The position numbers and the translations under genes are program-made. Positions 18,904 through 49,351 of a DNA stretch of 64,000 nt are shown piece after piece. The first letter of the stretch is position 1. Every line of letters starts with the position of its first letter. The stretch comes from Cephaloticoccus primus (lineage in GTDB: Bacteria; Verrucomicrobiota; Verrucomicrobiia; Opitutales; Opitutaceae). The notes beneath the pieces were generated by a model. The model worked only from the letters and a program-made list of their open reading frames with translations, searched no databases and was not told the DNA's origin. The stretch covers positions 1 through 64,000 of the forward strand of contig NZ_LSZQ01000057.1 of the NCBI RefSeq assembly GCF_001580015.1. The letters run 5' to 3'.

Positions 18904-18944
18904 AAAAAAATACGATATCCACAGCGCACATAGATCATCAATAA

Positions 18945-21203
18945 CTAGAAATTATAGCTAAGCATCAGTCGTGCGTTGCGCGGAAGGCCAACCCACACAT
19001 TTTGTCGACTGGTTGAAGACTGGAGGTATTCTTTATCGAGCAAGTTATCAATATTGAGTTGAGCTTTCCAAAATTCGCTTAAACGATAGCCAAGCGACAC
19101 ATTTACCAAAGTGCGCTCAGGCAGCCAAAATGAGGGCTGGATACGAATAACCTTATCAACTGTACTCGCTGAAGTTGCACCACCTGGGTTATCACCTGCG
19201 CGCTTGCTTAAATAATCAGCACCAATACCAATCGATAGGCCTTTAAACGGTGTACTTGCCCTGAAATCGTAGTTAACCCACACCGCACCCGATTTCTCGG
19301 CAGTACCACGGAATGGCATGTTGTCCGGATCACGGTTCTTCATGACGGTCGCGTTGCTGACTAGGGCCAAGTTTTGGGTAACGTTGTAGGTCACTTGTAA
19401 CTCAACGCCATCCGCAACACGATCTGAATAGATATCGGGAAAAGGAATAGGAGGAGGAGGCACGGCAGTATTAAGCTGGTTTGGCACTGAGTAATTATCT
19501 TGCTTGATGTCAAAGTAGGCTACGCTCGCGTAAAATCGCCCTTCAAGTAATTGTAACCTCATACCAAACTCATGTTGCTTGCTCGACTGTTTATCAAAGG
19601 CTAGCGGACCAGTAAGGTTAGGCCCAATCGCAGTCGCAACCTCGGAGTAACCGTAGTAGGCAGAAAGGCCGGGTGTAAATTTATAGACCAGCCCGGCAGA
19701 AGGCAACCAAGCATCTGGAGCATTAGCTCCGCGCAGATCGCGCAAAACGTCATAGTTATCAACGTAGTAATTATTGTAAGAAATGCCTGCACTAGCAATT
19801 AAACGCCCCTCAAGCAGGTTAACCACTTGTGAAATATAGAATTGGTACGAGCGAGAGCGCGAGTGCCCATAACCATCAAATCCGGAGCTCGTAAACATAT
19901 AAGGATACCATACATAATCTCTCAACTCCTGCGGAGAAGGAACAGTATAGTTACGACTCCGGTCATCATAGTTTCCGGAAAAGCTGGCTGCCCAACCAGC
20001 AACCGTAGTCGCCTTCCAAGAATCACTGTCGAGCTCGTATACGTAGTCGTTCTGGAGGTTGGTATAAGTTCTAGTTTGCCATACGACACTTGCCCCAAGT
20101 GGGAACTGCGGATTGTCGTTACGCGTAACACCATCCCAAACCGTATTCCCCGTGAGTGGGTCGAGTATCACTGGAGAACTAGTGATAGCACCAATATTAA
20201 GCTGCGATGAGGTTGCATTAGAGTGCACAACGTTAGCCGCAACTCGCATCGACAGATTATCCAATAACGAAGCGGTAAAGAATGCACGATAATGCTGCCC
20301 GCTTTGGTGACGCGAGGCATCTCTTCGCTGAATCACAGTATCGCGTGGGATATTTTCAAGTAGTCGCCAGTTCCCCATCGAAGTCGCGTAGGGCGAAATA
20401 GGGATCCCGCCATAAGTAAGCGCAAGTGCATTGTAAGCTTGCACTTGCAGCGTAATCTCAGCCCCCGAGATAAAGCGGTAAGTGAGCATCGGCATGATCA
20501 AATAGCTTTCATGGTAATTATGTTCACCATAATCCTCGGTATCTTGCGCAGCAGCTACCACACGCACAGCTATCTTTCCAGGAGTCACCACACGACTAAT
20601 ATCAGCTTCAGCACGATTAGAAGCCCAACGCCCGACTTGGGCTGAAAGTGAGCCACGGTTTTGGAATATCGGCTTTTTAGAGACCAGATTGACTGTGCCA
20701 CCGGGCACCCCCTGAGGGGCAATAATTGCATTGGGCCCTTTAACAACCTCTATTCTATCTATCACTGCCGGATCTACATTCAGGAAGGAAAAATGGCTGA
20801 AGCCATCGATTGTGGCTCCGTCGCTTTGGAAGCCGCGAATTGTTGTGCGATCTTGTGCGTTTGGAATCGTAGACTCGTAGACGCCAGAGACATATTTAGC
20901 CGCATCAAGAATACGGCCCGCACCGATGTCTTCAATCAAATCGCGCGTAACGACTGATACACTCTGTGTCGTATCAAAGAGTGAAACACGCACACGTGCC
21001 CCCGAAGTCGCTTCGGCTGCTTGATAGCGGCCTGTCTCCGTAGCTCTCACTGAAAAAGGAGAGAGCACCACAGTTTCTCCACTCACTTGGGTATCAGTAG
21101 GAGCAGGGACTTCGGGTTCCGACTGCGCAGCCAACCATGCAGAAGGAAGAAAAAGCGATAACACAAAAAACGACACGGCAATGCCAATGGAAATAGTCTT
21201 CAT
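18945..21203 (-). CDS. TonB-dependent outer-membrane receptor
   Basis: The 752-residue product from ATG at 21203 begins with a clear signal peptide (MKTISIGIAVSFFVLSLFLP ending in SAWLAAQ). A plug domain follows (SVSVVTRDLIEDIGAGRILD, then TTIRGFQSD, IDRIEVVKGPNAIIAPQGVP, GGTVNLVSKKP), then a 22-strand-type barrel ending in LMLSYNF with the expected terminal aromatic. The plug is of the siderophore-receptor style, but the next gene is a rhamnosidase and a LacI regulator is divergent, so the likelier substrate is an oligosaccharide. The frame is open 63 codons upstream, but only the internal ATG gives a secretion signal. Confidence 0.93.
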   Translation of the reverse strand: MKTISIGIAVSFFVLSLFLPSAWLAAQSEPEVPAPTDTQVSGETVVLSPFSVRATETGRYQAAEATSGARVRVSLFDTTQSVSVVTRDLIEDIGAGRILDAAKYVSGVYESTIPNAQDRTTIRGFQSDGATIDGFSHFSFLNVDPAVIDRIEVVKGPNAIIAPQGVPGGTVNLVSKKPIFQNRGSLSAQVGRWASNRAEADISRVVTPGKIAVRVVAAAQDTEDYGEHNYHESYLIMPMLTYRFISGAEITLQVQAYNALALTYGGIPISPYATSMGNWRLLENIPRDTVIQRRDASRHQSGQHYRAFFTASLLDNLSMRVAANVVHSNATSSQLNIGAITSSPVILDPLTGNTVWDGVTRNDNPQFPLGASVVWQTRTYTNLQNDYVYELDSDSWKATTVAGWAASFSGNYDDRSRNYTVPSPQELRDYVWYPYMFTSSGFDGYGHSRSRSYQFYISQVVNLLEGRLIASAGISYNNYYVDNYDVLRDLRGANAPDAWLPSAGLVYKFTPGLSAYYGYSEVATAIGPNLTGPLAFDKQSSKQHEFGMRLQLLEGRFYASVAYFDIKQDNYSVPNQLNTAVPPPPIPFPDIYSDRVADGVELQVTYNVTQNLALVSNATVMKNRDPDNMPFRGTAEKSGAVWVNYDFRASTPFKGLSIGIGADYLSKRAGDNPGGATSASTVDKVIRIQPSFWLPERTLVNVSLGYRLSEFWKAQLNIDNLLDKEYLQSSTSRQNVWVGLPRNARLMLSYNF

Positions 21204-21303
21204 AATTATTGGGGTAGATGGGGTTGGGGTAGTGAAAGCCCTCCAAAGGAGGTCAACGCCGATGAAGAAAGTAACAAATATGCTCTCGCTCAAATAGCGC
21301 TTG

Positions 21304-21318
21304 GCTTTATCGTAAAGC
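21304..21318. promoter_or_regulatory. Candidate LacI-type operator
   Basis: GCTTTA-TCG-TAAAGC is a 15-bp inverted repeat with 6-bp arms, ending 15 bases before the LacI-family start codon at 21334, in the 130-base divergent gap with the TonB receptor gene. LacI-family repressors usually bind short palindromes in such gaps and often repress their own gene and the neighbouring transport genes. No second copy was noticed upstream of the rhamnosidase or uxuA. Confidence 0.45.
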
Positions 21319-21333
21319 TTCCCCCGCCGCCGT

Positions 21334-22374
21334 ATGAAGAAACCCCAACCTGCTTCGCCAGAGGCTCCCGCCCGCGTCACCCTAAAGGACATCGCTCAGG
21401 CAGCACGCGTTAGTGTTATGACAGTCTCCTACGCGCTGCGAGGCTCACCCCAAATTTCGCAGCCCCAGCGTGAGCGCATCCGTAAACTCGCTGCCGAGCT
21501 CGGGTATCACCCCGACCCGTTACTCACTCACTTAATGACACATCTGCGAGGCGGGCGCGGCTCCCCCAAGACGAGCGAAAACCTCGCGCTGCTAACCATG
21601 TATGAGCCCCCTTTCGTAAGTCGCTTGATCCACGGGGCCAGAGCACGCGCGGCGCAGCTTGGCTACACGCTCGACCGCATTAATCTGAGTCAGATCCCCA
21701 GCAAAGCCGTTCTCACACGCACCCTCCTCGCACGAGGTGTGGCAGGTATCATTCTGACCCCAGCAAAGTGCCCAGACACCTATCGCGAGCTGCTCGATTG
21801 GACGCTGTTTGCGACAACCGCAGTCGGATACTCTTTTACTGAGCTTCCGGTAAACCGCGTTGTCACACACCATTTCGACAATGCACACCGCGTCTTTGCC
21901 CTCCTTCGTGAGCGCGGCTTCAGCCGTATCGGCCTAGCAATGACTCCCGATATGGAATTCCGTGCTAACCACAGCTACAGCGGGGCTTACTGCCGACTCG
22001 ACGCAATCGATAGCGTCAAAACCGTGCCGATCCTCATGATTGAGGAGCAAACACGCCAACAAAGTGTTCCTCGTTGGCTGGCTCGCCACCGTCCCGACGC
22101 TGTCGTTTTGGCCAACTCCAACCATTTCCGCGAATCCATCCTGCCACACACCCCTATTTCCACTTTGCGCAAGACTGCCTTCGCCTGCCTAGACCAACAG
22201 CCGACCGATGGGATTGCGGGGATTGACCAACTCTTCGAGACGATCGGCACCAAGGCCGTTGACGACGTCGTTAACCAAATCCTTCGCAACGAACGTGGCC
22301 TACCAACCAACCCGATAGTGACAATGCTCGAAGGGAAATGGTGCGAAGCCGCTGGGCTTTATCCGCGACTGTAG
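21334..22374 (+). CDS. LacI-family transcriptional regulator
   Basis: This 346-residue regulator has a helix-turn-helix at residues 15-36 (VTLKDIAQAARVSVMTVSYALRG) and the hinge helix region ERIRKLAAELGYHPDP. A periplasmic-binding-like effector domain follows, with LLARGVAGIILTPAKCPDTY, HFDNAHRVFALLRERGFSRIGL and a C-terminal strand near LPTNPIVTMLEGKW. The motif 'PLLTHLMTHLR' after the hinge is common in LacI proteins of Opitutaceae. It is divergent from the TonB receptor-rhamnosidase operon, which it probably controls in response to a sugar. No Shine-Dalgarno motif precedes the ATG, but see the short upstream frame at 21262. Confidence 0.93.
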   Translation: MKKPQPASPEAPARVTLKDIAQAARVSVMTVSYALRGSPQISQPQRERIRKLAAELGYHPDPLLTHLMTHLRGGRGSPKTSENLALLTMYEPPFVSRLIHGARARAAQLGYTLDRINLSQIPSKAVLTRTLLARGVAGIILTPAKCPDTYRELLDWTLFATTAVGYSFTELPVNRVVTHHFDNAHRVFALLRERGFSRIGLAMTPDMEFRANHSYSGAYCRLDAIDSVKTVPILMIEEQTRQQSVPRWLARHRPDAVVLANSNHFRESILPHTPISTLRKTAFACLDQQPTDGIAGIDQLFETIGTKAVDDVVNQILRNERGLPTNPIVTMLEGKWCEAAGLYPRL

Positions 22375-22557
22375 TAGAGCAGCCACTTTTGCCACCCTCT
22401 CCCCCTCCATTTCTAACACCGAAACAGCCTGCAACCCCGCCCCATAAACCGCAGGCTCCGGCAGCGGCGTCCAAGGCTCGTAACTGGCAACTACTTTATG
22501 GTGACCGTAAACGTTTCGAGCATTGCTGCCTACCGTCGAGCTACTGGGCGGACTGGC
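22375..22557. other. Intergenic gap between lacI and the F420-reductase-like gene; unexplained open frame
   Basis: These 183 bases separate two convergent genes. On the minus strand the frame stays open from just after the reductase stop to about 22300 and reads with protein-like composition (for example KVVASYEPWTPLPEPAVYG, then VSVLEMEGERVAKVAAL) but has no start codon. It could be the remnant of a longer C-terminus of the neighbouring gene or a chance open frame. No terminator hairpin with a T tract is evident. Confidence 0.3.
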
Positions 22558-23235
22558 CTATAGAAGCACCTTGCGATTGTATAGCCAGTAGCCATCAGGC
22601 ACGGTAGTCTCACGCGAGGTTGCGGCCAATGTGGCTCTCATCGTGTCCTGATCAAGCGCCACGCAATACACCGGTCTGAATCGCTCAAAACGCCAACTTT
22701 CAGCAAGTCCACCGGCATCTACCGGGTCAAATCCGAGTTTATTGACGAATTCGCAGACGACGGATTTTGCATCGGCATCATCACTTGCAACCGGCATGGC
22801 GCGCCGCTCTGCTGCCCCCGCCGGTCGCGCATCCTTGAGAAGATCCTCTACCGTAATCGAGTTGAGGGCTTTGACAACACGCGCTCCCGGGAGCTGCTGC
22901 GCCAATAGCTCTGAGGTGGTCATTTCGCCACGCTGGAGCGTTCCAATCACCCCGTCCCGGTGCGGAAAGTAGTTGAGAAGGTCCACGACCACCTTCCCTG
23001 CCAGTTCCGTTGACGGCAATGATCGATAGGCGCGCAAGGGAACAGCCAATACCACCAAGTCACCGTAAGAAGCCGCTTCCTGCGCGGAGCCTGCCAGACA
23101 GCCAATCGTTTGGGCAACTGATTCAGCGCCGGACTTCCCGCGGGTATTGCTCAACATGACGCTGTAGCCAGCAGCGACGGCATGTTTGCCTATCGCCCTG
23201 GACATTGCACCTGCTCCAATAATTCCAATTTTCAT
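22558..23235 (-). CDS. NADPH-dependent F420 reductase-like / predicted dinucleotide-binding protein
   Basis: The 225-residue product from the ATG at 23235 has a Rossmann NADP site at its N-terminus (MKIGIIGAGAMSRAIGKHAV, then VMLSNTRGKSG) and the layout of the PF03807 F420-oxidoreductase family: DLVVLAVPLRAYRSLP, GKVVVDLLNYFP, LPGARVVKALNSI and a C-terminal FVNKLGFDPVDAGGLAESWRFERFRP. Members outside actinobacteria and archaea generally use substrates other than F420, so the reaction is unassigned. The start at 23235 is supported by GGAAG five bases upstream, rare in this window. It is divergent from uxuA. Confidence 0.85.
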   Translation of the reverse strand: MKIGIIGAGAMSRAIGKHAVAAGYSVMLSNTRGKSGAESVAQTIGCLAGSAQEAASYGDLVVLAVPLRAYRSLPSTELAGKVVVDLLNYFPHRDGVIGTLQRGEMTTSELLAQQLPGARVVKALNSITVEDLLKDARPAGAAERRAMPVASDDADAKSVVCEFVNKLGFDPVDAGGLAESWRFERFRPVYCVALDQDTMRATLAATSRETTVPDGYWLYNRKVLL

Positions 23236-37783: not shown

Positions 37784-38596
37784 ATGCGCCGTATTTTCCG
37801 CCCCCCCTTCATCGCCGACCTCTGGCAACACCGCGAGCTGCTCTGGCAGTTTACCCTGCGCAATGTGGAGCTGCGCCACAGGGGCAGCTACCTCGGCCTC
37901 GTCTGGTCCTTCCTCAACCCGCTGCTCATGCTCGGGCTCTACGTAATGGTCTTTGGCTACATCTTCAGCGGCCGCTTTGGCGTAATCGAAGGCGAATCGC
38001 GCATCGACTACGGGCTGGGGATTTTTCTGGGGCTGACCCTCTTTCACTTCATCTCGGAGACGCTCGGGACGGCACCGAACATTATTTTGGGAAACCCGAA
38101 CTTTGTTAAAAAAGTGGTCTTCCCGCTCGAAGTCCTCCCCGCCGCCAATGTCGGCAGCGCTGCGGTGCACCTCGTCATCAGCCTGATCCTGACCCTGATC
38201 GGCATCCTCTGGCTCGGTCCCGGGCTGCATCTCGGGCTCCTCTGGCTGCCCGTTATCCTGCTGCCAATCATCCTGATGGCGCTCGGGCTCGGCTGGCTGC
38301 TCTCCGCACTGGGCACCTTCTTTCGCGATATTTCCCAAATCATCGGCTTCATCAATATGGTCCTGCTCTGGGCCAGTGGCGTATTTTTCACCGCGCACAA
38401 GTACCCCGCTGCATGGACCTGGCTGCGCTTCAACCCGCTACTGCTGGCGATCGACCTCGCACGCAACGCCGCCCTCTGGGAGCAGCCGCTCTCAATGGCC
38501 CACCTCGCCTACTTGTACGCTTGGGGCCTGGGGCTGTGCGTCTTCGGCAATTACGTATTCCGTAAGCTAAAACCGGTATTTGCCGACGTATTGTAA
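37784..38596 (+). CDS. wzm: Polysaccharide ABC exporter permease
   Basis: This 270-residue ABC-2 permease has six hydrophobic helices: WSFLNPLLMLGLYVMVFGYI, FLGLTLFHFISETLG, VHLVISLILTLIGILWL, LLWLPVILLPIILMALGLGW, FINMVLLWASGVFF and YLYAWGLGLCVFGNYVF. The N-terminal ELLWQFTLRNVELRHRGSYL and the 'LGxxWxxxxPLL' motif are typical of O-antigen/teichoic exporters. Its ATPase partner is the Wzt gene at 47576, at the other end of the same + strand cluster. Together they should export a lipid-linked glycan across the inner membrane. Confidence 0.93.
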   Translation: MRRIFRPPFIADLWQHRELLWQFTLRNVELRHRGSYLGLVWSFLNPLLMLGLYVMVFGYIFSGRFGVIEGESRIDYGLGIFLGLTLFHFISETLGTAPNIILGNPNFVKKVVFPLEVLPAANVGSAAVHLVISLILTLIGILWLGPGLHLGLLWLPVILLPIILMALGLGWLLSALGTFFRDISQIIGFINMVLLWASGVFFTAHKYPAAWTWLRFNPLLLAIDLARNAALWEQPLSMAHLAYLYAWGLGLCVFGNYVFRKLKPVFADVL

Positions 38597-38696: not shown

Positions 38697-39671
38697 ATGC
38701 GCGCCTTTATTACAGGAATCACCGGTCAGGACGGCTCTTATCTTGCGGAGCTTCTGCTGGAGAAAGGCTACGAAGTGCACGGGCTCGTGCACCGGCCCGA
38801 CACCGTGGCCCGCAGCAACATCGGCCATTTGGCGCGCAATGACGCGCTACTCGGCAAGCGGCTCTTCCTCCACAACGGCGCCTTTGAGGACGCTACGCAC
38901 TTGCGCCGGATCATCAGCAAGGCGCAGCCCGATGAGTTCTACCACCTCGCGGGTCAATCCAGCCCGCGACTCAGCCTGGAGCTACCCGAAAGCACGGTCG
39001 ATAGCATCGGCATGGCAACGCTGCGCCTGCTCGAAATCCTGCGCGACCTGCCCAAGCCCACCAAGTTTCTCTACGCCTCCTCCAGCGAAGTCTTCGGCTC
39101 GCCCAGCCACTCGCCGCAAGACGAGCTCACCCCGCTGGTGCCCACGACGCCCTACGGCGCGGCCAAAGCCTTTTCGCAACAGGTGGCCCGCATCTACCGC
39201 ACGGCCTACGGGATGCCCACCTGTGCCGCGATTCTCTACAACCACGAATCGCCGCGGCGCAGCGGCAGCTTTGTCACGATGAAAATCGCCCGCGCGGTCG
39301 CCCACATCAAGCGCGGGCTGCAAGACTCGCTCCCCCTCGGCAGTCTGGAGGGCCGCCGCGACTGGGGCTGGGCCCCCGACTACGTGCGCGGCATGTGGCT
39401 GATGCTCCAACAGCCGGCGGTCGACGACTACGTCCTCGCCACCGGCCAGCTCCACTCGGTCAAAGATTTCGTCGAGGCCGCCTTTGCCCGTGTCGGGCTC
39501 GATTGGCGCGATTACGTGCGGCACGACGAAGTACTGCTCACCACGGTTGAGCCCGTCGCCTCATGCGGGAACCCCGCCAAAGCGCACACCGCACTGGGCT
39601 GGGAAAACACTGTCCCCTTTGCCGAAATCGTCGCCCGCCTGGTCGATAGCGAACTCGCCAAACTTTCCTGA
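38697..39671 (+). CDS. GDP-mannose 4,6-dehydratase-like SDR enzyme (paralogue 1)
   Basis: This 324-residue extended SDR protein has an N-terminal NADP motif [20 protein letters not shown], the serine/glutamate site [10 protein letters not shown], the catalytic YxxxK in [10 protein letters not shown], and the Gmd-type substrate loop [17 protein letters not shown]. It closely resembles the next gene but is more divergent in the middle ([14 protein letters not shown]) and lacks the usual C-terminal length. It may be a dehydratase with altered specificity or act later on GDP-4-keto-6-deoxymannose. A TCCCCC/GGGGGA hairpin lies upstream at 38626-38643. Confidence 0.85.
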
Positions 39672-39745: not shown

Positions 39746-40744
39746 ATGCCCAAAAAAGCACTCATTACGGGAGTCACTGGCCAAGACGGCTCCTACCTTG
39801 CCGAACTCCTCCTGGAAAAAGGCTACGAAGTCCACGGACTCGTGCGGCGCGCCAGCACGCTGAATCGTGCGCGAATTGATCACTTGCACTCCTTTGAGCA
39901 TGGTGACTCGCCGCGCCTCATCCTGCACTACGGCGACTTGGCCGACAGCGTCTCGCTCGTGAAGCTGCTCTACTCGCTCCAGCCCGACGAGATCTACAAC
40001 CTCGCCGCGCAAAGCCACGTGCGCGTAAGCTTCGACATCCCCGAGTACACCAGCGACATCACCGGAGTCGGCGCAGGCCGCATCCTCGAAGCCATCATCG
40101 AGTCCGGCATCGGCAAAAAAGTGCGCTACTACCAGGCCTCCTCCTCCGAGATGTTCGGCAAAGTCCAGGCCGTACCGCAGACCGAGACCACGCCCTTTTA
40201 CCCGCGCTCGCCCTACGGCTGCGCCAAGGTCTTCGCCCACTGGCTGACCGTAAACTACCGCGAGTCCTACGGCCTCTTCGCATGCAGCGGCATCCTCTTT
40301 AACCACGAGTCCCCGCGGCGCGGCGAAAGCTTCGTCACGCGCAAGATTTCGCTCGCCGCCGCCCGCATCAAGAAAGGCCTCCAGAAGGAGCTCTACCTCG
40401 GCAGCCTCGACGCCAAGCGCGACTGGGGCTACGCCAAGGAGTACGTCGAGGGCATGTGGCGGATGCTCCAGCAGGACAAGCCCGACGACTACGTGCTGGC
40501 GACCAACGAGACGCACACGATTGAGGACTTCCTCGAAGCCGCCTTTGGACATGCGGACCTCGATTGGCGCGACTACGTAAAGTTCGACTCCCGCTACCTG
40601 CGCCCCGCCGAAGTCGACCTGCTCATCGGCGACTACTCGAAAGCCAGGCGCGAGCTCGGCTGGGAACCGCAAACCCGCATGCACGGCCTCGCCCGCCTCA
40701 TGGTCGACGCCGACCTCGCCACCCTGACACGCAGCCAAGGCTGA
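39746..40744 (+). CDS. gmd: GDP-mannose 4,6-dehydratase (paralogue 2)
   Basis: This 332-residue enzyme makes GDP-4-dehydro-6-deoxy-D-mannose, the precursor of GDP-rhamnose, fucose or perosamine. It has [20 protein letters not shown] at the NADP site, the family landmark [46 protein letters not shown], the catalytic YGCAK, and [17 protein letters not shown]. The usual sequence in Gmd is 'TSE-L/MFG', here SSEMFG. It is 74 bases after paralogue 1, separated by an AGCGGCG-CTT-CGCCGCT hairpin (39692-39708). No reductase or aminotransferase for the next step is in the window. Confidence 0.93.
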
Positions 40745-40798: not shown

Positions 40799-41737
40799 AT
40801 GAGCACTCCCCCGGATGCGCCCTACTTCTTTTATCCGGCTAATGCCTGGCCGCACAAAAACCACAAAGCACTCCTCGTCGCCTACGCCCTCTACCTCGAC
40901 GAAGTCGGCCCCGTACAGGCTTGGCGACTCGTCCTCACCGGGCACGACAACGCGCAGATGCAGCGCATCCGGCAGCTCTCCCAGACGCTTGACCTCGGCG
41001 ACTACGTCACGTTCTGCGGCTACGTGGAGGAGCCCGAGCTCGTCAGCCTCTGGATCGGGGCGGGGGCCATGCTCTTCCTCTCCCAACATGAGGGGACAGG
41101 AGTCACGCTGCTGGAGTCGATGGAGCGCGGCATTCCGATCCTCGCCAACAACCAGTCCGCCATCCCCGATCTATGCGCGGACGCCGCACTCCTGGTCGAT
41201 GCCCGCGCACCGCTAACCCTTGCCAAAGCCATGCAAGAAATCGCCAGCAGCCACGAGCTGCGCCGCTCGCTCGTCAAACGCGGCAGGGCGCGCGTCGCCG
41301 GGTTTCGGCCCGTCATCCTTCCCGGCAAACTACGCCCGACATTTGAAAACCTCAGCGCGCTGCCTCCCCAGGCCACGCACAGCGTAGGCTTCCACCCGGC
41401 CGACGGCTTTATCGAGCAACTCGCCACATTTGCGCTTCCCGGGAAAGAGCCCGTCACACTCCACTACGCCACCATCCCCGTCGGCGCACCGCGCCGAGTC
41501 GAAGTCTACGCCGACGACCATTTCCTTGAGACGCTGAGCCCGCCTCCGCGCAAACCGCTCACCGGCCAGCTCCGCATCCCGGCGGGCACACGCAGACTGC
41601 GGCTAAACTGCCCCGATGCCGCCCGCCTCAGCGAAGACGACCCGCGCATCCACGGCATCCGGCTTGGCAAGCTGGAGATCCACACCTCGGGCAAACCCGT
41701 CATCGACCTTCGCCAACAACCGCCCCTGCTGCTATGA
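40799..41737 (+). CDS. Half-size GT4 glycosyltransferase with C-terminal beta domain
   Basis: These 312 residues contain only the donor half of a GT-B enzyme: FFYPANAWPHKNHKALLVAY, LVLTGHDN, VTFCGYVEEPELVSLWIGA and the E-x7-E site in HEGTGVTLLESMERGIPIL. The N-terminal acceptor domain is absent. From about residue 200 comes a beta-rich domain (PVTLHYATIPVGAPRRVEVY, then IPAGTRRLRLNCPDAARLSE, RIHGIRLGKLEI) resembling domains in the proteins at 43438 and 47576. It may need a partner, perhaps the next glycosyltransferase, to which it is coupled by an ATGA overlap (41734-41737). Confidence 0.8.
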   Translation: MSTPPDAPYFFYPANAWPHKNHKALLVAYALYLDEVGPVQAWRLVLTGHDNAQMQRIRQLSQTLDLGDYVTFCGYVEEPELVSLWIGAGAMLFLSQHEGTGVTLLESMERGIPILANNQSAIPDLCADAALLVDARAPLTLAKAMQEIASSHELRRSLVKRGRARVAGFRPVILPGKLRPTFENLSALPPQATHSVGFHPADGFIEQLATFALPGKEPVTLHYATIPVGAPRRVEVYADDHFLETLSPPPRKPLTGQLRIPAGTRRLRLNCPDAARLSEDDPRIHGIRLGKLEIHTSGKPVIDLRQQPPLLL

Positions 41738-43344
41738 AGATCGGCTACGACTACGTGCAACCCTCCGTCACCCCCGCAGGCTGCGGCTGGCATGCGCACT
41801 CACTTTTCGTGGAGATGGCAAAACTCGCTCCGCAGCACCAGTTCCTCGGCTATCGACATTTTGGCGGAATCTTCGTCCCCGATGAAAAACTGGTGCCCCT
41901 GCCCGCACTCCCAAACGTCGTAAACCCCCTCCCCGGGCAGCCACAACGCACCACCCGCAAAGCGTGGCGCAAGCACCTCGCCCAAGGCCGTGCCCCGGGA
42001 GCCCCCGACATCGTTCACTCGCTCTCCTTTCAAGCCCCCCAGTTCACCAGTTCGAAACTCGTCGTCACAATCTTCGACGTCGGCTTCTGGGCTCACCCCG
42101 AATACACCACCGATGCGACACGCCTCGGCTGCCAACGCGGAGTTCTCGACTCGCTCGACTATGCCGATGGCCTCATCTTCAGCTCCGAGCACTCGCGACG
42201 GGAGTTCGACCGCTACCTGCCCCGCTACGCCCGGCGCGGGCAGATCCCCTCCATCGTCACCCTGCTGGCCTGCCGCTACGCGCCGATTTCCCAAGAACAA
42301 GCCGTGCGCAATATCGCCCATGACGGCGACTACTGGCTCTTCGTCGGCTCTCTTGAACCGCGCAAAAACCTGGTCGCGCTCCTCGAAGCCTACGAGGCCT
42401 ACGCCCACGCGCACCCCGCCCCCAAGCCCCTATGCTTCGTCGGCGGCAGCGGCTGGAAGAACGAGCAGATAAAAGCCAAACTCCGCCCGCTCGAAGAGCG
42501 CGGGCTCGCCCGCCACCTGGGCTTCGTCTCTGACGAAGAGCTGCCCAAGGTCTACCAACGGGCCGCCGCCTTTATCTTCCCCTCCTGGTACGAAGGCTTC
42601 GGCCTGCCCGTCCTCGAAGCCATGAGCCAAGGCTGCCCCGTCATCAGCTCCGACCGCAGCTCGCTCCCCGAAGTCGGCGGCAGCGCAGCTCTGTACATCG
42701 ACCCCGCCGCGCCGCAGACAATCACCGCCGCCATGCACCGGATAGAAAGTGAAGCGGGGCTGCGCGAAGGCCTCATCCGCGAAGGCCTCATCCAGGTCGC
42801 CAAATTCAGCTGGGAGAAAACCGCACAGCAGACCCTGGCTTTCTATGAAGAAGTCCTCAAAGCCCCCTTCACCCGGACTACGGAACTTACCAAAATACGC
42901 AAAGAGCCACGCTTCGGCTTGCGCAACACACTGAAACGCTCCCTCCGCCAAGCTTGGGATAAATGCTTCCCCACCCGTAGCCGGCTCGAAGCACAGACGG
43001 CCCAGCTAAACGCCCAGATTATCGCTCTCAGACAAACACTTGAAGACCTGCAAAACGGCCTGTCTAGAGTCGAGAGCCACTCGGAAACCCTGGCTCAAAA
43101 AACACAAATCCAGCTCAGCAAAGTCGAAGCCGAGTTGGCGGAGAACGCCCTGAAACTCGCGGCATATGCAGCCCCCCCTCCCTTCGCGACTTCCGGACTG
43201 GAAAATCATCACTCAACAGGCACTCATCCCCAACCTGCAGTAACACCCTCTTTGATCGCACTGGGAGCACTCCACAAAGCCATAGAAGTCATGGATTATA
43301 TCCCTACCGACACCTTCTGCACCGCGCTCGAAATGGGCTTATAA
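41734..43344 (+). CDS. GT4 glycosyltransferase with C-terminal coiled coil
   Basis: This 536-residue protein has a full GT-B fold. The N-terminal acceptor domain (MKIGYDYVQPSVTPAGCGWH, then VHSLSFQAPQF) is followed by the donor domain with FVGSLEPRKNLVALLEAYEA, the E-x7-E site in YEGFGLPVLEAMSQGCPVIS, and SSLPEVGGSAALYIDP. Residues ~400-470 are a predicted coiled coil (QTAQLNAQIIALRQTLEDLQ, LAQKTQIQLSKVEAELAENA), which may dock the enzyme to the polysaccharide assembly complex. No membrane segment is seen. It is translated in overlap with the half-size GT upstream. Confidence 0.88.
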   Translation: MKIGYDYVQPSVTPAGCGWHAHSLFVEMAKLAPQHQFLGYRHFGGIFVPDEKLVPLPALPNVVNPLPGQPQRTTRKAWRKHLAQGRAPGAPDIVHSLSFQAPQFTSSKLVVTIFDVGFWAHPEYTTDATRLGCQRGVLDSLDYADGLIFSSEHSRREFDRYLPRYARRGQIPSIVTLLACRYAPISQEQAVRNIAHDGDYWLFVGSLEPRKNLVALLEAYEAYAHAHPAPKPLCFVGGSGWKNEQIKAKLRPLEERGLARHLGFVSDEELPKVYQRAAAFIFPSWYEGFGLPVLEAMSQGCPVISSDRSSLPEVGGSAALYIDPAAPQTITAAMHRIESEAGLREGLIREGLIQVAKFSWEKTAQQTLAFYEEVLKAPFTRTTELTKIRKEPRFGLRNTLKRSLRQAWDKCFPTRSRLEAQTAQLNAQIIALRQTLEDLQNGLSRVESHSETLAQKTQIQLSKVEAELAENALKLAAYAAPPPFATSGLENHHSTGTHPQPAVTPSLIALGALHKAIEVMDYIPTDTFCTALEMGL

Positions 43345-43437: not shown

Positions 43438-46323
43438 ATGCCCCCTTCATCCCACTCCACCACACCCCGCAACCAAATGCTGCGACGTATTGCTACACTC
43501 TCCGCGCTCGCGCTTACTGTGGCAGTTTTATGGGGTATTATCTTCGACCGCTGGCGCCCCTCCGACTGGAGCGTCCCAATCACTTACGATGGTGACGGGC
43601 TTTTTTACCTGGCTTGCACCAAACTTGCCGAGAGAGGCGAGCTAAGCATTGCAGGGCATATCTTTACGGAAGCTCTGGGTGCTCCCTTCGTAGGAAATCT
43701 AAATGATTTCCCCTATACCGACCGCGCGATGTCCTGGGTCGCTGGTTTTTTCAGTCGTATTAGCGGTCCATTTTTTGCAAATAACCTGATGGGGGTCTGC
43801 GCGCATATTCTAGCCGCTTTCTCTTTTTATTTGGCAGCACGACTCTGGCGAATCTCCCAACCAGTCGCATGGGGCCTCTCCATCCCCTATGCGTTTATCC
43901 ACTACGGACTACTTTGGCACACCAAGGTTCTTGGAATTCTCTTTTTCGGTCTACTCCCCCTTCAACTTTATGTCTGTTGGTATTTATCGGCAGCACCCAA
44001 GCTTGGTTGGAGATCTCCGAGGTTTAAGCTAGCGGTTGCCATCTCCTTCCTTTCCGGGTTTAATAATATATATTTCGTAGTCTCCTTTGCCCTATTCTAC
44101 TTCTTTGCATTATTGCGCCGCATTTGCGCAAGGCACTGCGACTTTAGGCTGGCTATCATCCCATCTCTATTTACGGCCCTTGCCTTAACTATCGTATTAA
44201 GCAGTTTCATTATCTATGGTATAACTAATGGGAAAAACCCGGGAGCAGTTATCCGCCACTACGCCAACCTGGAGTGGGGATCTCTTAAGCCTTTCGACCT
44301 GGTCATCCCAAACCTGGGTCAAGCCTTTGGTTTATTTAATTGGCTATATAAAAAATATAGTACCGTAACATCCCTGATGTTTCCCGAACAGATGACAGTC
44401 TATGTCGGGCTTATTGGAATAGCAGGACTATCACTATTAATATGGAATTTTATAACAAGAAGTCTCGCCCGTAAGCCGATCCCCCTCCCCGCGCTCTGCA
44501 CTATCTGGACACTCGCTTTTATAAGCTTCGGAGGACTGGTCGGACTCTTTGCTTTGATAAGCGACTTTTATATGATCAGGGCGATCCAGCGTTACGCGAC
44601 GATTATTTCTACAATCTCATTCCTATACTTCGCTTTGGGGCTAAGCCGCTGGAGCAGGGATTGGCATAATATTCCCAAAATCGCTTTAATTTCCGCAATA
44701 GGCATAGGCGGTTTAGCCGACCAAGCGTGGCCACACTTCAAAAAGTGGCAAGGGTCAGCGGAGTCTATGACTAGACAACTAGAAGAAGACGCTACCTTGG
44801 TTACCAAGCTAGAGACCGAGCTTCCCGCCAAGAGCATGTTATTCATGCTGCCCATTGTTCCCTTTCCTGAGGGCCCACAACAATTGTATGGCATGCAGGA
44901 TTATGAGTTATTCAGACCCTTTCTTCACTCCAAGACCTTGCGATACTCTTATGGGAGTCATAAGGGCCGCCCAACGACAGAGTGGCAAAAACACACCGCC
45001 TACCTACCTGCGAATAAAATGGTAACAGAGCTCGAATCCTATGGATTCAGAGGAATTCTGATTAATCGTCATGGATACGAAGACAATGCCAACTCACTAC
45101 TCGAAGAGCTAGCTAGCGCAGGCCACAAACCCACTATTGAACAAGGTGATGAGTGGGTCTTTATTCCGCTCAACCCGTCTCCGACACCTAAACTTCCGCA
45201 CCTCCCTTACTCCTTCCCGGACAAGTGGTTTTCTTCAGAAGGTACACCTGACAACTGGTGGAGGTGGACGTCTACCAGCAAAAACAATATCATCCACCTC
45301 TATACGCGAGAGTCAGGGAGACACCACCTCACATTCGACATCTCGGCAGTCTCCGCCAGAAATATCTATCTAACACTGGATGGCAAACCCTTGGATACAA
45401 TAAATCTCTCCACAAGTAACCTGCACCGTGCCATTTCTTTGATTCTGGATTTACCTAAAGGGAAAAATATACTTACACTATCCACCGATCAACCGCCAAC
45501 CATCCCGATTGGAGATAATAGGGCACTCTCCCTATGTGTCGCGAATCTCAACCTCGTCCCTATAGGAAGTCTCTCTCTAAATTTCGGCCAAAACTGGTTT
45601 CCTAGAGAAGGCACAGCGGATAATTGGTGGCGATGGACGGGCACCATCACGGGAAGCGAGCTCAGCATCTATAGCAAAGAGGCAGGAAAGTATCAACTCA
45701 CTGCTTCCTTGGGTGTCATATCCCCACGACAAGTATACTTCATGAGAGAAGGGGAGCTCATCCAGAAAGTAGAATTCCAGCATCAAGGGGAACAGGCCAT
45801 ATCATTTACTCTCAAGCTAAAACAAGGTGACAACACTATCCTCCTCTCTACAGATCAAATGGGGCTCAGCCCCGTCGGCGATCCAAGACATCTGGCTTTC
45901 TACATCAAAAATGCACAAATAGCCGCCCTTCCTCCTCAGGTGGTATCCTTTGACAATAACTGGTTCCCGAAAGAGAGGGGCGGCGATAACTGGTGGCACT
46001 GGACAGGAAAGCGCACGGGAAGCAAGGTCTCAATCGATAATCATGGTGAAGAGGGCACCTATGAGCTCTTCGCCCTGGTCGGTGCCATTAATCAACGAAA
46101 AGTAGATGTCATGGTAAATGGAGAGCTCGCTGCGATTCTGGAATTCGATCAGGCAGGAGAGCAGGAGTTATCAATCCCATTGAGACTAAAACAGGGTAAC
46201 AACAGCCTTATCTTATCCACAGACCAAGACCCGATCCAGCCCGACACACGCGACACTCGTGAGCTCGCATTTTATATAAAGAACTTAACTATAAAATCGA
46301 CAGTAGATAATGAAAAACAATAG
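43438..46323 (+). CDS. GT-C-like polytopic membrane protein with three C-terminal beta repeats
   Basis: Residues 1-450 contain about ten membrane helices (from IATLSALALTVAVLWGIIF to IPKIALISAIGIGGL), with the motif PITYDGDGLFYL in the first outer loop, as in GT-C membrane glycosyltransferases using lipid-phosphate sugars. Residues ~590-955 are three ~120-residue repeats, each starting W(F)-x2-E-x4-(D)NWWRWT or NWWHWT (about 45219, 45588 and 45951) and ending in LxFxIxN. They look like carbohydrate-binding beta sandwiches, predicted extracytoplasmic. G+C is clearly lower than in flanking genes, suggesting separate acquisition. The function is inferred: glycan modification or polymer capping. 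Confidence 0.75.
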   Translation: MPPSSHSTTPRNQMLRRIATLSALALTVAVLWGIIFDRWRPSDWSVPITYDGDGLFYLACTKLAERGELSIAGHIFTEALGAPFVGNLNDFPYTDRAMSWVAGFFSRISGPFFANNLMGVCAHILAAFSFYLAARLWRISQPVAWGLSIPYAFIHYGLLWHTKVLGILFFGLLPLQLYVCWYLSAAPKLGWRSPRFKLAVAISFLSGFNNIYFVVSFALFYFFALLRRICARHCDFRLAIIPSLFTALALTIVLSSFIIYGITNGKNPGAVIRHYANLEWGSLKPFDLVIPNLGQAFGLFNWLYKKYSTVTSLMFPEQMTVYVGLIGIAGLSLLIWNFITRSLARKPIPLPALCTIWTLAFISFGGLVGLFALISDFYMIRAIQRYATIISTISFLYFALGLSRWSRDWHNIPKIALISAIGIGGLADQAWPHFKKWQGSAESMTRQLEEDATLVTKLETELPAKSMLFMLPIVPFPEGPQQLYGMQDYELFRPFLHSKTLRYSYGSHKGRPTTEWQKHTAYLPANKMVTELESYGFRGILINRHGYEDNANSLLEELASAGHKPTIEQGDEWVFIPLNPSPTPKLPHLPYSFPDKWFSSEGTPDNWWRWTSTSKNNIIHLYTRESGRHHLTFDISAVSARNIYLTLDGKPLDTINLSTSNLHRAISLILDLPKGKNILTLSTDQPPTIPIGDNRALSLCVANLNLVPIGSLSLNFGQNWFPREGTADNWWRWTGTITGSELSIYSKEAGKYQLTASLGVISPRQVYFMREGELIQKVEFQHQGEQAISFTLKLKQGDNTILLSTDQMGLSPVGDPRHLAFYIKNAQIAALPPQVVSFDNNWFPKERGGDNWWHWTGKRTGSKVSIDNHGEEGTYELFALVGAINQRKVDVMVNGELAAILEFDQAGEQELSIPLRLKQGNNSLILSTDQDPIQPDTRDTRELAFYIKNLTIKSTVDNEKQ

Positions 46324-46370: not shown

Positions 46371-47540
46371 ATGCCATCCGCCTCCAAACAAAGCAGTTTC
46401 TGGAAAAACTGGTTCCCCTCTCCAAAAAAAATCCAGCAAAGGCTTAGGCAGCTGGAGGCCGATTCGGTAGCCAAGCAGCAGCGCCTGTCGAAGCTGGCAG
46501 CGAATGCGACCGAGACGGCCGCTGTCTGGGAGCAAAGGCTCAGGCAGCTGGAGACCGATTCGGTGGCCAAGCAGCAGCGTCTGTCGAAGCTGGCAGCGAA
46601 TGCGACCGAGACGGCCGCTGTCTGGGAGCAAAGACTCAGGCAGCTGGAGACCGATTCGGTGGCCCTCAAACTCGCCTCCGGCGAGCTTCTACGCGACCTT
46701 GAAAAGCACCTAAGGGCGCTCGTCTCAGCTCAATCATTTCCCCTCAAACAGCCGAATACCGCAGAGTCGGCACTCGCGAGTCTGGATGAGCTAAAAGCCT
46801 TGGAGGAAGATAGCTTCTACTCTGACCTCGAAGCCCGCTGGCGCGGATCACGCGAACTCATTCGTGAGCGCCAGTCGTACTACCTGCCAATGATTGCCGA
46901 AGTACGCCAGGCAGTCGCGACCGCCGCCCCATCCTCAGGATTGCCCGGAGGCGAAATTGCCCACTCAGCACTTTGGGAACGCCTCTGCAAAGAACAAGGG
47001 GTGCTCGACCTCGCCTCTGGCCGCGGCGAATGGCTTGGCCTGCTCCAGGAACAGGGTGTGCCGGCCGTCGGAGTGGATCTTAACCGGATTTTCCTAAAAG
47101 AATGCCGCGAGCGCGGGCTCAATGTCATCGACTCCGACGTTATCGACTTCCTCACCAATGCACCGTCCGACTCCGTCGCAGCCATCACTGGTTTTCATAT
47201 CATTGAGCACCTCCCCTTCCCTGTTCTTCAAAAATTTGTGCGCGAAAGCCTTCGCGTGCTTCGCCCTGGCGGCATAGCCATCTTTGAGACACCTAACCCG
47301 CGCAACATCCTCGTCAGCACGCTGAACTTCCGGCTCGACCCGACCCACATTCACCCGGTTAACCCCGAATTTATCCAATTCCTCCTGGAGCACTCAGGGT
47401 TTAGAAAAGTACGCTGCGAGTTCCTGACGCCCTGCTCTGAGGAGTGCCACGTCGGTGCCAAAGACGACCCGCTCGCGCAGCGATTTAATGAACTCTTCTA
47501 CGGCCCGCAAGACTTCGCCGTCATCGGCACCAAAGGCTAG
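46371..47540 (+). CDS. SAM-dependent methyltransferase with repeated N-terminal coiled coil
   Basis: This 389-residue protein has an N-terminal coiled coil (about residues 18-115) built from 32-residue repeats (RQLEADSVAKQQRLSKLAAN, ATETAAVWEQRL). A class I methyltransferase domain follows: VLDLASGRGEWLGLL (motif I, near 210), PAVGVDLNRIF (motif II), ITGFHIIEHLPF and VLRPGGIAIFETPNP. In E. coli WbdD a methyltransferase ends O-antigen chains and its coiled coil sets their length; this gene sits directly before wzt in an ABC-type locus and has the same combination, minus the kinase domain. The role as terminator/ruler is inferred. Confidence 0.85.
   Translation: MPSASKQSSFWKNWFPSPKKIQQRLRQLEADSVAKQQRLSKLAANATETAAVWEQRLRQLETDSVAKQQRLSKLAANATETAAVWEQRLRQLETDSVALKLASGELLRDLEKHLRALVSAQSFPLKQPNTAESALASLDELKALEEDSFYSDLEARWRGSRELIRERQSYYLPMIAEVRQAVATAAPSSGLPGGEIAHSALWERLCKEQGVLDLASGRGEWLGLLQEQGVPAVGVDLNRIFLKECRERGLNVIDSDVIDFLTNAPSDSVAAITGFHIIEHLPFPVLQKFVRESLRVLRPGGIAIFETPNPRNILVSTLNFRLDPTHIHPVNPEFIQFLLEHSGFRKVRCEFLTPCSEECHVGAKDDPLAQRFNELFYGPQDFAVIGTKG
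46446..46664 (+). repeat. 96-bp tandem repeat in the coiled-coil coding region
   Basis: Two nearly identical 96-bp units (46446-46541 and 46542-46637) and a third partial unit (46638-46664) each begin AGGCAGCTGGAG. The units differ at only a handful of bases (for example GAGGCCGATTCGGTAGCC against GAGACCGATTCGGTGGCC). Ninety-six bases encode exactly 32 residues, so gain or loss of a unit keeps the frame and changes the coiled-coil length by about 4.8 nm per unit (32 residues at 0.15 nm rise). Confidence 0.95.
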
Positions 47541-47575: not shown

Positions 47576-49351
47576 ATGCCGCCCTCCAGTCCACAAGAAC
47601 GCAGTATCAGTGCCCAGCACCCGATCGCCATAGAGGCGGATCGGGTCGGGAAAAGTTACCGCGTGTGGGATAGCCCCTTTGCACGCTTGCGCGCCAGCGT
47701 TCTGGAAAAATTGGCGAGCCTTTTTCGGCGATTGCCCGGAGCCGAAAACACCTTGGCCGCGCGGTTCCAGGCCGCCGCGCAGCGCGGCTTTCGCGAGATC
47801 CAGGCGCTGCGCTCCATCTCGCTCCAAATTGGCCGCGGGGAAGTCGTGGGCCTCATCGGCTACAACGGCGCGGGCAAGTCCACCCTATTGCAGATCATTG
47901 CGGGTACGCTCTCGCCCTCCAGTGGGCAAATCGCCGTGCGCGGGCGGGTCGCCGCACTCCTCGAGTTGGGCTCCGGCATGAATCCCGATTTCACGGGACG
48001 GGAAAACGCCTACCTGTACGGCTCGATCCTCGGCGTCTCGCGCCAGTTCCTCGACTCGCGCATGCACGCCATCGAAGCCTTTGCCGAGATTGGCCAATTC
48101 TTCGACGACCCCGTCCGCACTTACTCCACCGGCATGGCCGCTCGACTCGCCTTCGCCGTGCTCACCCAGCTCGATCCGGACATCCTCATCGTCGATGAGG
48201 CACTCTCCGTCGGCGACGCCTACTTTCAGCACAAGTCGATCAACCTGATCCGCCAGTTTCAGGAAGCAGGAAAAACCATGCTCGTCGTCAGCCACGACGC
48301 CGCGACGATTAAAACGATGTGCTCGCGCGCGGTCATCCTGGAGCGCGGCCTGGTCATCCGCGAAGGCCCCGCAGGCGCCGTCTGCGATTACTACAACGCG
48401 CTCGTCGCCAAGAAGCAGAAGGACCTCGAAATCCGCCAGATCGAGCGCGAGAAGGGCCAGATCATCACCCGCTCTGGCGACCGCCGCGCCATCATCAGTG
48501 ATGTGGAGCTGCTCAATACCGCTGGTGCCCCCAGCCGCGCGTTCACCATCGGCGAAGAAGCCCGTATCGTCTGCCTGATTGATGCCAACAGCGCGCTCGA
48601 TGACCCGACCGTCGGCATCATCCTGCGCGACCGGCTCGGCAACGACGTCTTCGGCTCCAACACCCACTACCACAAAATGCCCCTCGGCCACTTCGAGCCC
48701 GGCCAGCGCGCACAAGTCACCTTCAGCCTGCCGCTGCGGATCGGTGTCGGCCAATACTTGCTGACGACCTCGCTGCACTCCGGTAAAGACCACCTCGCCG
48801 ATAACTACGACTGGCAGGATAATGCCATCGCCTTCTCTGTACTACCCAGCACCGAGCCTCACTTTGTCGGCAGCGCACAACTCCCGCTCCAGATTGAAGT
48901 CAGCCGCGAGCAAATCGCCCCCCTGCGCTCCTACGAGTGGGGGCAAGAACTCGACTTTGGCGTCTACGGCAATGCCGCTCGCCACAAACTCGACGGCTGG
49001 TCGACTCCCGAAGACGACTTTACGTGGAGCCAAGAACCGGAAGCGGCCTTGCACTTTGATTTCCCCGCATCGGCCAAAGCCCGTCAACTACACCTGCAGG
49101 CTGCGGCATTCTGCCATGAAACCCTACCCCGGCAGCGCGTCTGCGTATCGCTTGGTGAGCACACAATTGGCGAGCTCGCAGTCTCGGACATCGGCGACTA
49201 CTCCCTACGAATCCCGGCCAAGCTCCTGGCCGCGCCCAGCCATCATAAACTCACCTTTGCGCTGCCCGACGCTGCCCAGCCTTCGGCCCTCGGTATCTCC
49301 AACGACGCCCGCCTGCTGGGCATCCGCCTTTTCCGGCTGCGAATCGAGTAA
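47576..49351 (+). CDS. wzt: Polysaccharide ABC exporter ATPase with Wzt-type C-terminal domain
   Basis: This 591-residue protein has an ABC domain at residues ~20-265 (Walker A GYNGAGKST near 97, signature YSTGMAARLAFAV, Walker B ILIVDEALSVGD, switch His in VVSHDAATIKTM). A Wzt-C-like domain follows (~residues 300-425: VELLNTAGAPSRAFTIGEEA, then VGIILRDRLGNDVFGSNTHY), which in O9a-type systems binds the modified end of the glycan. A further ~140-residue beta domain (LDGWSTPEDDFTWSQEPEAA to ARLLGIRLFRLRIE) is not part of standard Wzt and resembles the repeats of the protein at 43438. Its permease partner is wzm at 37784. Confidence 0.93.
   Translation: MPPSSPQERSISAQHPIAIEADRVGKSYRVWDSPFARLRASVLEKLASLFRRLPGAENTLAARFQAAAQRGFREIQALRSISLQIGRGEVVGLIGYNGAGKSTLLQIIAGTLSPSSGQIAVRGRVAALLELGSGMNPDFTGRENAYLYGSILGVSRQFLDSRMHAIEAFAEIGQFFDDPVRTYSTGMAARLAFAVLTQLDPDILIVDEALSVGDAYFQHKSINLIRQFQEAGKTMLVVSHDAATIKTMCSRAVILERGLVIREGPAGAVCDYYNALVAKKQKDLEIRQIEREKGQIITRSGDRRAIISDVELLNTAGAPSRAFTIGEEARIVCLIDANSALDDPTVGIILRDRLGNDVFGSNTHYHKMPLGHFEPGQRAQVTFSLPLRIGVGQYLLTTSLHSGKDHLADNYDWQDNAIAFSVLPSTEPHFVGSAQLPLQIEVSREQIAPLRSYEWGQELDFGVYGNAARHKLDGWSTPEDDFTWSQEPEAALHFDFPASAKARQLHLQAAAFCHETLPRQRVCVSLGEHTIGELAVSDIGDYSLRIPAKLLAAPSHHKLTFALPDAAQPSALGISNDARLLGIRLFRLRIE

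Follow-up and report, generated by a model that had tools for sequence, protein, structure and literature searches.

A repeat-built coiled-coil methyltransferase in a Cephaloticoccus primus ABC export locus: a candidate chain terminator and length ruler for a surface glycan

Introduction

How might the length of a bacterial surface glycan change in steps over evolution? This length influences phage adsorption, host contact and immune recognition. Ruler proteins account for length within a strain. The locus examined here raises, in a concrete form, the question of how that length evolves. In the window (the 64,000-nucleotide stretch of C. primus contig NZ_LSZQ01000057.1 that was analysed), a methyltransferase gene beside wzt encodes an N-terminal coil built from 96-bp repeats. 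A first-pass annotation had read this gene as a candidate chain-length ruler by comparison with E. coli O9a WbdD, and had proposed that recombination between repeat units would resize it.

Results

Repeat array and protein architecture

An ATG-started open reading frame spans exactly positions 46371-47540 and encodes 389 aa. The gene and its parts are as follows.

46371..47540, plus strand: coiled-coil methyltransferase, candidate chain terminator and ruler, 389 aa (PF13489, AlphaFold2, O8-type homology)
46389..46427, plus strand: probable N-terminal membrane anchor or recruitment motif, around SSFWKNWFPSPKK (model helix 7-14 and motif conservation)
46422..46727, plus strand: continuous coil helix, residues 18-119, about 15 nm (AlphaFold2)
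46435..46664, plus strand: in-frame tandem repeat, 96-bp (32-aa) unit, 2.4 copies
46809..47537, plus strand: methyltransferase domain of O8-WbdD/3DLI type (homology, fold)

TRF assigned the array a period of 96 with 2.4 copies, 96% matches and zero indels, and it was the sole strong long-period tandem array in the window. Copies start at 46435 and 46531, with a partial copy at 46627; the first-pass annotation had placed 96-bp, 32-codon units at 46446, 46542 and 46638, and both the period and the spacing were recovered. The unit corresponds to 32 codons in frame, reading QRLRQLE[A/T]DSVAKQQRLSKLAANATETAAVWE. The two full units differ at just four codons, three of them synonymous, which argues for a recent duplication, and the partial third unit differs from the second by one synonymous codon. 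Convergent heptads were ruled out as the origin of the array by these near-identical codons and mostly synonymous changes. The hydrophobic positions, as read from the unit sequence, resolve into three heptads plus one hendecad instead of a pure heptad pattern; since 32 is the sum of these, the phase of the coil would be kept with each unit added. The array of this species was read from one genome.

The Pfam scan confirmed the methyltransferase domain (PF13489, 5.3e-14) and found no kinase family in the 389-aa protein, as the earlier reading of the sequence had indicated. The AlphaFold2 model (15 sequences, mean pLDDT 84) contained a short helix at residues 7-14, one unbroken helix at residues 18-119 (102 residues) and, starting near residue 199, a class I methyltransferase fold, so that the N-terminal coil proposed at first pass is also seen in the model, as a continuous helix predicted for a single chain. 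Coil length was computed at 0.1485 nm per residue. The nearest solved structure to the methyltransferase, by sequence and by fold, was 3DLI from Archaeoglobus fulgidus, whose entry names only a SAM-dependent methyltransferase and describes no function or coil. The motif FWQKWFPSPKK, located before the coil, is common to the window protein and its homologue in Cephaloticoccus capnophilus, and W..LFP+K-like motifs are present in other Opitutaceae homologues; we consider this N-terminal motif to be putatively membrane-binding.

The ABC export locus

The genes surrounding the methyltransferase gene are listed below.

37784..38596, plus strand: Wzm, ABC exporter permease (PF01061)
38697..39671, plus strand: second GDP-mannose dehydratase-family enzyme (PF16363; under the gmd equivalog cut-off)
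39746..40744, plus strand: GDP-mannose 4,6-dehydratase (TIGR01472, above cut-off)
40799..41737, plus strand: GT4 glycosyltransferase, N-terminally short, 312 aa (against a 503-aa C. capnophilus homologue)
41734..43344, plus strand: GT4 glycosyltransferase with a probable C-terminal coil of its own (helices 415-442 and 447-478, low-confidence model)
43438..46323, plus strand: probable membrane protein, 961 aa, low GC, between the second GT4 and the methyltransferase gene
47576..49351, plus strand: Wzt, ABC exporter ATPase with a Wzt_C glycan-binding domain (PF00005, PF14524)

The locus therefore encodes Wzm and a Wzt with a C-terminal glycan-binding domain (PF01061, PF00005, PF14524). The wzt gene starts 36 bp downstream of the methyltransferase gene, and together with wzm at 37784 it bears out the ABC-export setting suggested at first pass. 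The product of 38697..39671 is probably an RMD-type reductase, which would yield GDP-D-rhamnose. The GT4 at 40799-41737 is without about 190 N-terminal residues of its 503-aa C. capnophilus homologue, and reads EGTG where that homologue reads EGFG; judging from its sequence it is possibly decayed, and given this N-terminal loss the pathway may be altered in this strain.

The 961-aa gene has a GC content of 48%, against 58-61% in its neighbours, and no Pfam family was found for its product. The first ~590 residues of the product place it in a family of paralogues, three of them in this genome and at least six in C. capnophilus, and its C-terminus apparently comprises three tandem domains of ~115 aa (WFP.E...DNWWRWT). 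We also observed a second low-GC island at window positions 17000-23000 (48-57% against about 65%), with long minus-strand ORFs at 16948-18903 and 18945-21392.

Comparison with Cephaloticoccus capnophilus

We searched eight genus relatives for a close homologue of the methyltransferase and found one in a single genome, that of the ant symbiont C. capnophilus CV41. In that genome the ORF of the GT4 homologous to the one at 41734..43344 continues past FWQKWFPSPKK, enters a coil made of 18-aa (54-bp) units and runs off the contig end. The contig that carries the methyltransferase starts inside the 54-bp repeat in the same frame, and overlaps the GT4 contig by 47 bp. A search of the whole C. capnophilus genome found the 54-bp repeat at these two contig ends and nowhere else. 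Because no other contig carries the repeat, one GT4-coil-methyltransferase ORF is the simplest reading, and we strongly infer from the sequence that in C. capnophilus a polymerase-type GT4, the coil and the methyltransferase form one fused protein. The alternative of two separate repeat-bearing genes with another gene between them was set aside for the same reason. On the simplest reading the assembler was unable to bridge the array, and the contig overlap gives no unit count.

The window protein bears the same N-terminal motif and therefore looks like the terminator half of such a fusion, parted from its GT4 by the inserted low-GC gene. The putative membrane-end polymerase would thus be covalently joined to the coil in C. 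capnophilus, and polymerase and coil are separate proteins in the window. The repeat units differ between the two species (32 aa in the window protein and 18 aa in C. capnophilus), which means that each array arose, or was replaced, independently.

Relationship to the E. coli O8-type terminator

When plasmids were searched with the window protein, matches came from enterobacterial ones; the matching gene lies between a wzt annotated as O8 family and a large glycosyltransferase gene, that is, in the wbdD position. Over 199 aa, the window methyltransferase shares 45% identity with the protein encoded there in an E. coli O8-type locus. O8 WbdD has been described as a simple methyltransferase (PMC3482155); this identity, with the lack of a kinase family, favours the first-pass suggestion that the chemistry would be methyl and not methyl-phosphate.

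The O8-type terminator is normally 425 aa long; in a 477-aa allele, 156 bp within the coil region are duplicated exactly, in tandem and in frame. This allele (WP_064179390.1) occurs in separately deposited IncX5 plasmids of E. coli and Serratia marcescens; as one accession is found in two plasmids, the allele is real and probably reflects one event. The 52-aa unit of the duplication falls off the heptad-hendecad rule. We compared 302 E. coli genomes with the O8 coil region: the region was found in one place in each of the 301 chromosomal copies and in three places in the duplicated plasmid. Each chromosomal copy thus appears to have just one unit, and among the E. coli O8 coils compared the duplication was confined to the plasmid. 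An O8-type coil can lengthen naturally, and where the coil lacks a repeat array there is hardly any variation. In both conjugative IncX5 plasmids (L206 and L210, from E. coli ECONIH4 and S. marcescens 95) the allele lies in an O8-type locus for O-antigen export.

Survey of the family

When the methyltransferase alignment was used to scan GTDB genomes, it recovered 80 loci, distributed over Cyanobacteria, Proteobacteria, Desulfobacterota, Acidobacteria, Verrucomicrobia and further groups. Almost all of the proteins are extended at the N-terminus by 40 to >400 residues, largely coiled-coil in appearance, and wzt lies at most 3 kb away in 45 of the 80 loci, with many contigs stopping nearby. Ahead of the coil, cyanobacterial homologues have a conserved PEINVDELMEKIREEVAKR segment and an amphipathic stretch whose last residues are FLFKDQR. 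Other arrangements were also seen: several homologues (L088-L092) have, before the coil, an additional N-terminal segment (YHVNDLLRYHDRTFIQNAYRAILKR) similar to DUF4214; in other Opitutaceae the domain order is the opposite one, with an N-terminal methyltransferase followed by a linker and a GT4 in L126 and by a coil-like region in L125 and L127. No homologues were found in phage records. Pseudosulfitobacter plasmids gave near-identical matches across many strains and were set aside as uninformative.

We defined a strong repeat as one with a TRF score of at least 100 and examined 118 distinct family coils. Strong tandem repeats were present in 48 of these coils, in none of the 118 methyltransferase domains and in none of the 118 codon-shuffled coils. 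All periods in the 48 repeat-bearing coils are divisible by 3. Unit sizes of 7, 14, 18, 22, 32, 33, 35, 39 and 57 aa can be made up from heptads and hendecads, and those of 10, 26 and 27 aa cannot. Counted by clade, 15 of the 18 units fit 7a+11b, i.e. they keep phase (p about 0.013 under a simple null), a figure that a pure spacer would fit as well.

Coil length in close relatives

Close pairs were those with methyltransferase domains at least 90% identical, and coil indels of at least 7 aa were counted. Most of these indels were whole units. A Brasilonema-type pair with 99.5% identical methyltransferases differs by 14 aa in the coil, several Microcystis pairs by 22 aa, a Nostoc pair by 14 aa and Brasilonema by 7 aa; L163 and L069 show coil differences of 28 and 7 aa, and L077 and L179 one of 28 aa. 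The largest difference, 112 aa or 8 x 14 (5 against 13 units), separates Anabaenopsis from a Nodularia metagenome assembly, and the array of one side (L056, the metagenome assembly) may be collapsed. Exceptions that are not whole units measured 37 aa (L044/L050) and 11 or 10 aa. Over the same close pairs the methyltransferase domain had a single 3-aa internal difference. Several of the varying arrays come from very long contigs, for which assembly collapse is unlikely. In the Limnofasciculus homologue (L049), a run of N lies within a 7-aa repeat array, a sign that the array was not assembled through. The first-pass annotation had held that an invariant repeat number would speak against a resizable ruler; in these relatives, and in the natural O8-type plasmid allele, coil length shifts by whole units, the window's species itself being represented by one genome.

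Discussion

We favour, with a probability of roughly two in three (about 0.66), the reading that the 389-aa protein is a chain-terminating methyltransferase with a ruler altered stepwise by repeat recombination. The protein would be an O8 WbdD-type terminator acting on a glycan, probably D-rhamnose-rich, whose chains are polymerised in the cytoplasm before Wzm/Wzt exports them. Its N-terminal amphipathic motif would keep it at the membrane beside the polymerase, and the coil would hold the methyltransferase about 15 nm out. The chain would be capped once its tip reaches the methyltransferase, so that coil length would set chain length. Unequal recombination or slippage could then gain or lose whole in-frame units, about 4.8 nm each, with no frameshift; by analogy with engineered WbdD coils, unit number would alter glycan length.

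Among known systems, the WbdD of E. coli O8 and K. pneumoniae O5, the methyl-only chain terminator of an ABC-exported O-polysaccharide, shares with the window protein the methyltransferase family, the absence of a kinase, the position next to wzt and an extended coil, which is a predicted one in the window protein. It has the methyltransferase at the N-terminus and the coil at the C-terminus, whereas the window protein begins with the putative anchor and the coil; the WbdD order of catalytic domain, coil and membrane helix is thus reversed here. The O8 coil normally has no repeat array, except for the plasmid allele, while the window coil is built of repeats. In E. coli O9a and K. pneumoniae O3, the coil of WbdD keeps the terminator off the membrane, as proposed for the window protein, but that WbdD is a methyl-phosphate terminator and tested ruler with a kinase, and the window protein is kinase-free and of reversed order. 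The O9a WbdD structure was not found among the PDB sequence matches to the family profile (E<=0.001); we therefore take O9a as an analogue and O8 as a relative.

Polymerase and terminator are joined in one polypeptide with a coil between them in K. pneumoniae O7 ORF6 and O12 WbbB (PMC11231755), as in the very probable C. capnophilus GT4-coil-methyltransferase protein. O7 ORF6 comprises a methyltransferase-kinase, a coil and two GT2 modules in one chain. Both K. pneumoniae proteins have the opposite module order and other GT families; O7 ORF6 has a kinase and O12 WbbB a Kdo terminator, in contrast to the methyltransferase of C. capnophilus. NeuO, the O-acetyltransferase of the E. coli K1 capsule, is, like the window protein, a glycan-modifying enzyme with an N-terminal tandem repeat, and its variable number of heptads tunes activity (PMC3046976). 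Its 7-nt unit also gives on/off frameshifts, unlike the in-frame 96-bp unit, and its repeat domain, which forms no coiled coil in the crystal, acts on catalytic efficiency and not on the length of the chain.

The main rival to the stepwise ruler treats the coil as a mere scaffold or spacer at the polymerase, of loosely constrained length, in which repeat gain and loss are neutral drift of low-complexity coding DNA. Coils tolerate in-phase insertions, N-terminal regions range from 42 to >400 aa, and the coil diverges fast beside a conserved methyltransferase (60% against 97% identity between L163 and L069), all of which speaks for such drift. It is set against the finding that coil length sets chain length in the WbdD systems tested (PMC11231755; PMC5082667), and the prevalence of phase-keeping units leans the same way, though a spacer alone could account for it; we regard drift as unlikely, at something over one chance in five.

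Less probable again is that the locus is decaying in this strain and the ruler has little effect. The truncated GT4 at 40799 and the low-GC gene that splits the presumed ancestral fusion speak for such decay, but the ORFs of the methyltransferase, wzt, wzm, gmd and the GT at 41734 are all intact, and three of the four codon differences between the full units are synonymous. We give still less weight to a role other than chain ending, in which the enzyme would methylate sugars inside the chain or produce a methylated sugar precursor. Methyl sugars are common within O-polysaccharides; homology and gene position nevertheless match the O8 terminator, and the enzyme co-occurs with a Wzt bearing Wzt_C. 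Short-read assemblies handle tandem repeats poorly, but an assembly artefact is very improbable for an array whose units differ at four codons, given that assemblers usually collapse units and do not invent them, and that similar arrays occur in genomes with very long contigs.

Several points count against the preferred reading of a stepwise ruler: the domain order is reversed relative to WbdD, and a search for measurements of glycan length or of termination in a coil-first protein found none; the one genus relative with a close homologue has another unit; the non-array O8 coil is almost invariant in 301 chromosomal copies; the GT4 at 40799 is truncated, so that the pathway may be altered; and L056, in the pair with 5 against 13 units, may have a collapsed array. 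The ruler principle, polymerase-terminator fusions and repeat-tuned glycan enzymes such as NeuO (PMC3046976) are already known separately. Their combination, a repeat-built ruler that varies stepwise among relatives, was not reported in the literature searched, with most subscription papers lying outside that search.

Tentatively, and at somewhat less than even odds, repeat coils in O8-type terminators may be a widespread evolvability device that tunes glycan length by whole units, resembling contingency loci without the on/off frameshift, with alleles already segregating, including on conjugative plasmids. A ruler of identical units that changes by whole units offers a concrete, testable mechanism for the evolution of glycan length, and the natural one-unit and two-unit O8-type alleles provide a ready comparison.
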